Source of the DNA: Desulfovibrio sp. G11
GTDB lineage: Bacteria > Desulfobacterota > Desulfovibrionia > Desulfovibrionales > Desulfovibrionaceae
DNA: 64,000 nucleotides
Direction: 5' to 3'
NCBI RefSeq assembly: GCF_900243745.1
Contig: NZ_LT984798.1
Coordinates: 434,001 to 498,000 of the forward strand
Positions 42,625 to 46,668 of the stretch are shown piece by piece. The position numbers and the translations under genes are program-made. The stretch's first letter is position 1. Each line of letters begins with the position of its first letter. The notes under the pieces were generated by a model, which saw nothing but the letters and a program-made list of their open reading frames with translations, did not search any database and was not told the DNA's origin.

Positions 42625-43683
42625 TCAGCGCAGTACCAGTGCCTTGCCGTCCGGCCTCGGCTCTGCAACCTCGCCCACAAGACAGGCAAGGTCACCGCCG
42701 GCATGCAGCAGGGCGCACGCCTCATCCACCTGATCCGGAGGCACGGCAAGCAGCAGCCCCCCCGACGTCTGGGCATCAAAGGCCAGACTTTCCAGCGCTT
42801 CATCCACGCCTTTCTCCACCAGGGAAGAACAGGCGCAATGCTTGCGGTTAAGGTGGCTGCCAGCGGGAATAAGGCCGTCGCGCGCATACTCCAGGGCACG
42901 CGGCATGAGCGGCAAGGCTTCGGTTTCAAAAACCACACACACGCCGGACGCCAGCGCCATCTCGAGGGCGTGGCCCCCCAGGCCGAAGCCGGTAATATCC
43001 GTGGCCGCAGCAAGCCTGAGCGTACGAATGACCGCACCGCCCACACTGTTAAGGCGTGAACACCAGCGTATAAGCTCCGCTTCGCTTTGGTCCGCGCCGT
43101 CCCACCCGGCCTTGACCCCGGTAGCCAGTACACCTGTACCCAGCGGCTTCGTCAGCAGAAGCTTTTGCCCGGGCTGCAGGCCGTCATTACGCGCCATGTG
43201 ATCCGGATCAATAATGCCTGTGACGGCAAGGCCGTACTTCAGCTCTTCGTCCTGAACCGTATGGCCTCCGGCCAGCACGGCTCCGGCCTCATTCATGGCC
43301 TCAAGACCGCCACGAAGGATGCTTGCAAGAATGCCGTCAGGGTCCTCTTCGGCCAGAGCCTGCGGAAAAAAAGCAACGTTCATGGCACTCCACGGCTCAC
43401 CGCCCATGGCGTACACGTCTGAAAGCGCATTGGCCGCAGCTATACGGCCAAAGTGAAAGCCGTCATTAACAATGGGCGCAAGTATATCTACGGTCTGCAC
43501 AATGGCGCGACCGGGCGGCACGGTAAGCACCACCGCATCTTCATTGCGGGCGCGGCCTGCCAGCACACGGGCTTCGAGATCCGGCCGGGTGCCTAGCGGC
43601 AGTCCATGCAAAAGCCGCTCCAGGGCCCCTGGAGCAAGTTTTGCGGCTCAGCCGGCAGCGCGAGCTTTTTCCAGAAGCTTCAT
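42625..43683 (-). CDS. selD: Selenide, water dikinase, a selenoprotein
   Basis: SelD makes selenophosphate, the selenium donor for selenocysteine. The conventional frame starts at 43611, but upstream in the same frame a single TGA (43648-43650) is followed by conserved SelD sequence. From ATG 43683 (AAGGAGACGCGC upstream) the product reads MKLLEKARAAG-U-AAKLAPG. The U sits exactly where family members have catalytic Cys or Sec, with Lys three residues later (C17/K20 in Escherichia coli). Downstream are ATP-binding segments NEDAVVLTVPPG, FGRIAAANALSDVYAMGG and AGGHTVQDEE. Full length is 352 residues including Sec, as expected for SelD. Confidence 0.9.
43614..43650 (-). promoter_or_regulatory. 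Selenocysteine UGA codon and SECIS-like hairpin of selD
   Basis: The in-frame TGA is at 43648-43650. Immediately downstream, GCCGC can pair with GCGGC, and inside it GCTCCAGGG pairs with CCCTGGAGC with only a one-base loop or a small GGGG/CCC apical loop. Bacterial SECIS elements are hairpins in this position, within the coding sequence just after UGA, and are bound by SelB. I did not compute a fold. Confidence 0.7.
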
Positions 43684-44205
43684 GCGCGTCTCCTTGCGTA
43701 AATTTGCTGTTGTAGTATGCGCTCTTCCGGCACAAAGGTCAAAACAGCCAGCAGGGCCGCTATTGCCGCCCCGCCCAGGCGGGTCACAGCAGGCAGTGAC
43801 TGCTCGCCACCCGTTTCTGCCTCAAGCATACATGCCACGCCAATGCCGCCCTTTCGCTGGCTGCCCGGCTGTACGGGACATAGTGGCAGCCACGGAACAC
43901 GTGTAACTCAAACATGCCGCATGGGTGCAAGCAGGCATGTGCCTGTGCGGTCGTTGTCCGAAAGGTTTTACGCCGAAGGCGCCACCAGTGAGTTATGCTA
44001 TTGTGCGCCTTTAACATTTTGAGAATATATATTATCAAAGGTAAGGGGTTCCAGATCCGGCACGGCCCGCCCCCTCCTGTATCTCTTGGATATGCTGAAA
44101 AAAGAACAATTTATCCATAACAACAGCAAATTATACGAGAATAAAGTTACATCACAAAAATTCGTCCCGACACCACGGTCGAATATTTTATATGGAGAAA
44201 GTATA
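43684..44205. other. Intergenic stretch upstream of the SDR gene
   Basis: 522 bases between divergently transcribed selD and the dehydrogenase. It contains a candidate promoter at 44001-44029. Part of it, 44020-44180, is AT-rich. No supported gene. Confidence 0.45.
44001..44029 (+). promoter_or_regulatory. Candidate promoter of the SDR gene
   Basis: TTGTGC and AATATA with a 17-base spacer, about 175 bases upstream of the start. The long leader makes this tentative. Confidence 0.35.
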
Positions 44206-45586: not shown

Positions 45587-46668
45587 CGCGGTTTCAAGTT
45601 CAAAGTGCAACACCCAGTCCTTGGGTATTGGCGTCTTCTAAAAAAACTTCATAGGGTGTCTTAAACCCAAGGCATTTTCTAGGCCGCCAGTTCAAGCGGC
45701 ACATTGCCGCTATGATCTCATCTTGCGTGACCGATGCCAAGCTTACCCCCTTGGGGAAGTATTGGCGTAGAAGGCCATTGGAGTTCTCGTTCAAGCCACG
45801 CTCCCACGAATGGTAGGGGTGCGCAAAAAATCCCTGAGCCTCGAGTGTAGCTGACACATCGGCATGGTAGCTGAACTCCTTGCCGTTATCATAGGTAATA
45901 GTCTGAACAAAGTCCTTAATGGGTGTCAAGAGTCCTTCAATGACCCGCCTTACTTCGCTGGCGCTTTTGTTGGGAGCCTTGCCAAACAGGAAAAGACGAC
46001 TTTTACGCTCTGCAAGTGTCACCAAAACGGGGCCTCCTTTACTGCCTTCAACGGTATCAGCCTCCCAATCACCAAGGCGTGAGCGCTCGGCAACAATGGA
46101 CGGGCGTATGTCTATGCTGATACGCCCCTTGATTTGACCTCGTCTGTCGGGTTTGCCATATCGTCGTTTGCGTTTGCGCTGGCAGCGCAAATGGCTGTGC
46201 AGCGTTCCTCCTCGTTTTTTGTCCGCCAGAATGTACTGGTAAATCCATTCATGACTGAGGGCAAAACCTTTGCGTTTGAGAACTCCAGAGATTTGCTCCG
46301 GACTGAAGTCCTGGTGCAGACACTGTTCAACATACGTCCATACCTCAAGGCCAATGCGCTTCTTCCCTTTACTGGTCTGCCTTTTCTGACTGCGCTTGTG
46401 TGCCTGCCTGTAGCGGTAGCCACGCGCCCCGGTATTTCGCGCAAGTTCGCGGCTTACAGTTGAGACGCTACGGCCTATCGCTTTGGCTATGGCCCTCAGT
46501 GACGTTCCACTTTTCACTGCCTGGCAGATGTAGTACCGTTCTTCCCTGGCAAGGTGTGCATAGCCCATACGCCCCTCAATCTTTGGTTGGATGGAGAGGC
46601 TAAAGGGCTATACCACCTTGCCTTTTCATTCAACCTTGAGGGTGTTGCACTTGCAAGTTGAATCCGCC
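45587..46668 (-). mobile_element. IS30-family insertion sequence, copy 2, 1082 bp
   Basis: Same length and terminal repeats as copy 1, with a 3-bp duplication TTA (45584-45586 and 46669-46671). The right end lies one base from the poly-A/T tract of the rplQ terminator. Same orientation as copy 1, 18.3 kb away. Confidence 0.9.
45600..46568 (-). CDS. IS30-family transposase, copy 2
   Basis: Intact 322-residue transposase, nearly identical to copy 1, with the same GDWEADTVEG, TYDNGKEF and NENSNGLLRQYFPKG catalytic motifs. The few differences are ILADKKRGG against ILADKRRGG and RPSIVAE against RPPIVDE. Either copy could mobilise both elements. Confidence 0.92.
   Translation of the reverse strand: MGYAHLAREERYYICQAVKSGTSLRAIAKAIGRSVSTVSRELARNTGARGYRYRQAHKRSQKRQTSKGKKRIGLEVWTYVEQCLHQDFSPEQISGVLKRKGFALSHEWIYQYILADKKRGGTLHSHLRCQRKRKRRYGKPDRRGQIKGRISIDIRPSIVAERSRLGDWEADTVEGSKGGPVLVTLAERKSRLFLFGKAPNKSASEVRRVIEGLLTPIKDFVQTITYDNGKEFSYHADVSATLEAQGFFAHPYHSWERGLNENSNGLLRQYFPKGVSLASVTQDEIIAAMCRLNWRPRKCLGFKTPYEVFLEDANTQGLGVAL

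Follow-up and report, generated by a model that had tools for sequence, protein, structure and literature searches.

A probable selenocysteine-containing SelD in Desulfovibrio sp. G11, of a type already known and ordinary in its family

The gene on the minus strand at 42625-43683 of the window, by which we mean the whole stretch of 64,000 nucleotides analysed from Desulfovibrio sp. G11, is selD, encoding selenide, water dikinase. Its product is very probably (we put this at about 0.97) an ordinary selenocysteine (Sec)-containing SelD, in which an in-frame UGA is recoded as Sec12. The finding is true but already known. Sec-SelD is nothing out of the ordinary in this bacterial family, and the literature has recorded it since 2006, when Zhang et al. 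listed SelD as a selenoprotein of both Desulfovibrio vulgaris and D. desulfuricans (PMC1794560, Table 3). The enzyme recorded there is the same, the species were then in the same genus, and it stands beside the Sec protein FdhA (3), just as three formate dehydrogenase-type matches of the present genome contain a TGA. The difference is that another genome is concerned. The sequence-only reading of this DNA was right that Sec-SelD is known in anaerobes, but left unsaid the record in Desulfovibrio itself that this table contains.

The coding sequence runs from an ATG at 43683-43681 to a TGA stop at 42627-42625 and specifies 352 residues, reading MKLLEKARAAG-U-AAKLAPGALERLL and then on to that stop. 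Six bases 5' of the ATG a Shine-Dalgarno sequence, AAGGAG (43690-43695, minus strand), can be read directly from the sequence, and the UGA taken as residue 12 occupies 43648-43650. The list of ordinary open reading frames holds only 42625-43611, a frame of 328 amino acids that starts at a TTG (43609-43611) and lacks the active-site segment, with both Sec12 and Lys15 (codon at 43639-43641). It had been claimed from the letters that the frame continues upstream of 43611 through one TGA to the ATG at 43683 with its ribosome-binding site, and that ordinary ORF calling misses the N-terminus of SelD; every coordinate of the former proved correct, and the listed frame is indeed so truncated. Elsewhere in the window, at 45600-46568 (minus strand), lies a 322-residue protein with an HTH_38 match and an integrase-core match under its cut-off, which is presumably an IS30-type transposase.

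With the upstream segment included, the protein matches TIGR00476 (selD) from profile position 2 at 314.7 bits, against a curated cut-off of 125 bits. Without that segment the match begins at profile position 35 and scores 290.8 bits. The Pfam domains are AIRS and AIRS_C. A match to an oxidoreductase/SelD-related fusion (TIGR04369) reaches 125.7 bits and was set aside, the curated cut-off for that family being 700. Aligned with solved SelD structures, the TGA residue takes the place of the Cys, and residue 15 that of the Lys, in the GCGCK of 3u0o (chain residues 17 and 20) and likewise in the GCAAK of 2yye. We take 3u0o to be SelD of E. coli. Cys-SelD of this type resembles the present protein in that its Cys17 and Lys20 align with Sec12 and Lys15, and differs in carrying Cys, which involves no recoding. 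An in-frame UGA in place of the catalytic Cys codon, with a Lys codon three places further on, corresponds to the UxxK motif of Sec-containing selenophosphate synthetase (PMC13188914, Table 1). The N-terminus thus aligns with Cys-SelD proteins, in agreement with the earlier suggestion of a catalytic Sec followed three residues later by a Lys.

Were the UGA a true stop, SelD would be translated from the TTG at 43611 as a protein of 328 residues, which is the frame that mechanical ORF calling yields and which has a GGAG six bases 5' of the TTG. However, that product would be devoid of the two residues, Cys/Sec and Lys, matched to solved SelD, and the GGAG belongs to the 3' arm of a hairpin described below, with the TTG itself lying within the 3' arm of the lower stem. 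In addition, the 11 codons upstream of the UGA are under protein-level selection: the N-terminal 11 residues are identical in 12 of 14 near relatives, and third positions hold 64 of the 77 base differences over the 14 comparisons. The codon at the Sec position is TGA at 70 of 74 loci and TGT or TGC at the remaining four (L061, L072, L074 and L084), which also argues against a stop. We consider termination at this UGA very improbable.

Decoding of the UGA as Sec is consistent with the gene content of the genome, a single contig of 3,416,440 bases with a completeness of 99.99%. It holds selA (583.6 bits), selB (314.7 bits, or 344.8 together with its neighbour, a C-terminal piece in the same frame) and a tRNA-Sec (77.8 bits) with the anticodon TCA (UCA). 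These are the selA, selB and selC genes on which the sequence-only reading had made its case depend. The three formate dehydrogenase-type matches have one TGA each, in the contexts VUHSPTVA, LUHSASVPGL and TUHAPTVAGL, the second of which departs from the UHxP motif tabulated in PMC13188914. Only one SelD exceeds the cut-off, with two weaker matches besides, and no SelU (TIGR03167) over cut-off was found in the genome. Sec synthesis is therefore the only use of selenophosphate found there, SelU being the other use searched for.

A hairpin directly following the UGA had also been pointed out from the letters alone. It extends over 43608-43644 (minus strand) and is a candidate bacterial SECIS on the evidence of its fold, its stem pairing and its synonymous constraint. 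Counting from the base after the UGA, the lower stem pairs +4 to +9 with +35 to +40, the upper stem pairs +11 to +20 with +24 to +33, and the apical loop is GGC at +21 to +23. The published constraints on bSECIS elements are a loop of 3-9 with G in the first two loop positions, an upper stem of 4-16 bp, a spacing of 16-37 nt and an energy of at most -7.5 (PMC13188914). Compared directly with the fold, all four agree: the loop is of 3 with G as its first base, the upper stem of 10 bp, the spacing 20 nt and the energy -24.4 kcal/mol. This energy is for the 53 bases that begin just before the UGA; shuffles of the stretch average -17.3 kcal/mol (sd 2.65), and 3 of 200 fold as well. The fold of a single sequence is, on its own, only suggestive of a SECIS. 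Because the bSECIS model is permissive and a few shuffles fold equally well, the hairpin was tested by comparison.

The comparison began from 74 loci, namely the window, 30 loci from a search of 149 genomes of the family and all 43 from a second search. With seven further stretches it came to 75 Sec loci (60 distinct hairpins) and 6 Cys loci (5 distinct); identical hairpins were counted once, as certain loci come from one genome or from genomes that scarcely differ (L084 and L098 are identical here). Across the 60 distinct Sec sequences, several codons after the UGA are nearly fixed. The Ala codon at +5 is GCT in 42 of 43 cases, against 12.4% of the 2554 Ala codons from +16 on. The corresponding figures are 46 of 49 against 22.2% for GGG at the Gly codon +7, 57 of 60 against 48.5% for CTG at the Leu codon +9, and 57 of 57 against 51.1% for GAG at the Glu codon +10. 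No bias was seen at the Ala codon +8 (GCC in 7 of 12). Since the sequences are related, Fisher p-values for these biases are not the probabilities of independent events. At codons +5, +7, +9 and +10 the entropy of the third base falls to 0.42, 0.33, 0.0 and 0.24 bits, respectively; constraint is weaker at +6 and +8 (1.37 and 1.12 bits), and codons +11 to +30 have 1.64-1.99 bits.

The tests of stem pairing covered the pairs between +13 and +31. Of the 420 stem cells in the 60 distinct Sec hairpins, 400 are paired, whereas redrawing synonymous codons leaves 268 paired (sd 7, maximum 291 in 1000 draws). The paired count drops to 98-217 of 420 after slides of 1-3 bases; for slides of 6 bases it is 149 of 420 and 196 of 360. 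Every one of the 60 has a G at position 20 or 21. Pair 13-31 is G-C in some hairpins and C-G in others, the swap being made by paired changes of amino acid, mostly Ala with Arg or Gln versus Pro with Glu, Ala, Gly or Val. This basal pair is unformed in 10 of the 60 hairpins (8 of 57 in a smaller set) and pair 18-26 in 6 of them, and at some loci, such as L078 and L044, the fold is unlike the rest. A compensated stem is also seen on a very long branch, at L035 (genome G018), where CCAAA...TTTGG stands in place of the usual CCAGG or CCGGG...CCTGG. Rfam at its gathering threshold matched only a tRNA in the whole window; with E raised to 10, 161 bases gave four matches, all far below gathering scores and with no SECIS among them, a negative that extends to the families that Rfam holds. 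Judging from the pairing and the codon biases, the hairpin is under RNA-level selection. The hairpin noticed from the letters thus holds as a bacterial SECIS, and it strongly shapes the codons that follow the UGA.

The family is represented by 149 genomes: 128 carry a SelD containing one TGA, two carry a Cys-SelD and 19 show none over cut-off. For 35 of the 128 the TGA was confirmed to stand at the Sec codon (the window, the 30 family-search loci, G017, G135, G081 and G022), while for the others the count means that the SelD match spans one TGA. In G017 and G113 the match over cut-off starts downstream of the UGA; the TGA of G017 was confirmed at the locus and that of G113 falls in another fragment, which scores below the cut-off. 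A tRNA-Sec was detected in 130 of the 149 genomes: in 125 of the 128 with TGA-SelD, in one of the two with Cys-SelD and in four of the 19 with no SelD over cut-off. The three TGA-SelD genomes that lack it (G022, G135 and G145) are 62-75% complete. One genome has, besides its normal tRNA-Sec, a second and weaker match of 53.6 bits that is over the gathering score (G088:C1:586440-586531). A sequencing error or a pseudogene could be suspected from a single in-frame stop in an otherwise open gene. Yet 70 of 74 loci share a TGA at this codon, the SelD match spans one TGA in 128 of 149 genomes, and the rest of the frame is intact, so that the probability of such an accident is negligible. At another locus (L082, 3001-4055) the selD match spans 1055 bases, which is not a multiple of three, and its best segment stops at residue 236; this points to a frameshift, either genuine or introduced by the assembly.

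The frequency of Sec in this family exceeds that seen more widely. In the reference set of Mariotti et al. (2015, PMC4561486), Sec occurs in 19% of SelD genes, always at the same position, and bacterial SECIS elements were recovered in the genes that contain it. The present case shares that position and a bacterial SECIS element, but here 128 of the 130 genomes of the family that have SelD over cut-off have the TGA. A tree was built from 72 SelD proteins of the 81 loci, leaving out short and identical ones and masking the Sec/Cys residue. On it, the Cys state requires two changes (2-3 in bootstrap trees; mean 4.9 in shuffles, with 0 of 500 as low). The Cys protein of L061, encoded by TGT, is sister to the Sec protein of L095, on starred branches. 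As this pair lies within the window's own clade, a change from Sec to Cys is likely at L061. Support for the other Cys clade is weak (93/49). At L078, whose hairpin is off the family pattern, a Sec-SelD stands in the tree beside four Cys-SelD proteins and may be an intermediate.

The same Cys proteins bear on another account of the UGA, namely that a near-cognate tRNA reads it through as Cys, Trp or another residue without any Sec. Cys does work at this position in other SelD proteins (PMC4561486). Against this stand the Sec machinery of the genome and the conservation of the hairpin at synonymous sites. At L061, where the codon is TGT, the fold is only -10.0 kcal/mol and no tRNA-Sec, selB or selA was found in a search covering 1.4 Mb of the genome (G149). 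We therefore hold readthrough of this kind to be extremely improbable. What L061 retains after its TGT is a decayed hairpin. In a second Cys-SelD genome (G008, locus L097) the assembly likewise yielded no tRNA-Sec, selB or selA, while three others (G150, G151 and G152) combine Cys-SelD with selA, selB and tRNA-Sec, all kept. SelU (TIGR03167) was sought as a use for Cys-SelD where the Sec machinery is missing, and was rejected, none of the 15 genomes having it over cut-off. The proteins of L061 and L097 are orphan SelDs that perhaps serve a selenium cofactor.

The converse situation, a tRNA-Sec with no SelD over cut-off, occurs in four genomes (G010, G014, G047 and G146), for which an assembly gap, loss and displacement were weighed. 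All four have selA, and all save G014 have selB. Mariotti et al. (2015) state that every genome encoding selenoproteins conserves SPS, with a few exceptions given in their supplement (PMC4561486), and the portions of the literature on SelD absence available to us contained no report of Sec decoders without SelD. Assembly gaps are the likely cause in G010 and G014, since these are in 330 and 430 contigs and G014 has a SelD fragment. G047 (L113-L116), by contrast, is a near-complete assembly of 1.7 Mb in 4 contigs, the main one of 1,457,619 bases. It has selA, selB and tRNA-Sec yet seems to lack selD, which is more unusual than the SelD of the window. Because no formate dehydrogenase match was found in it, its Sec machinery may be a remnant. 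G146 (L111) belongs to the same genus as the window; its draft assembly, in 60 contigs, has a formate dehydrogenase holding one TGA. It keeps tig and tRNA-Leu; the position that selD occupies in its relative G040 is taken by a gene for adenylate kinase. This shows that selD is absent from its ancestral place, and does not imply absence from the cell; the gene could lie in a gap of the draft.

The proposal that the UGA is decoded as Sec is supported by the reading frame, its homology and the alignment of residue 12, by RNA-level constraint in the hairpin and by the selA, selB and tRNA-Sec genes of the genome; actual Sec insertion and the activity of the enzyme are what we infer from the sequence. 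Translation would initiate at the ATG at 43683, and SelB carrying Sec-tRNA-Sec, bound to the hairpin just after the UGA, would recode 43650-43648 to Sec12. Sec12 and Lys15 would then lie at the active site of an enzyme making selenophosphate from selenide and ATP. As SelA uses selenophosphate to make Sec-tRNA-Sec, SelD would need its own product.

The case is one in which a recoded start region, truncated by mechanical ORF calling, was called correctly by eye. As Sec-SelD is already known, the self-dependence of the selenium-activating enzyme follows, and the biological point, namely the dependence of this enzyme on selenium, was published years ago. In Methanococcus maripaludis, whose sps is itself a selenoprotein gene, the transcript level is unchanged with selenium (PMC11097638). 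A bolder idea, which we think unlikely, is that a lone SelD with no SelU over cut-off constitutes a closed positive-feedback loop, in which cells switch all-or-none between Sec-competent and Sec-incompetent states with selenium. If this were true, SelD would be made only when selenophosphate already exists, and G047 and G146 would represent lineages that have fallen out of the loop or that have another source of selenophosphate.
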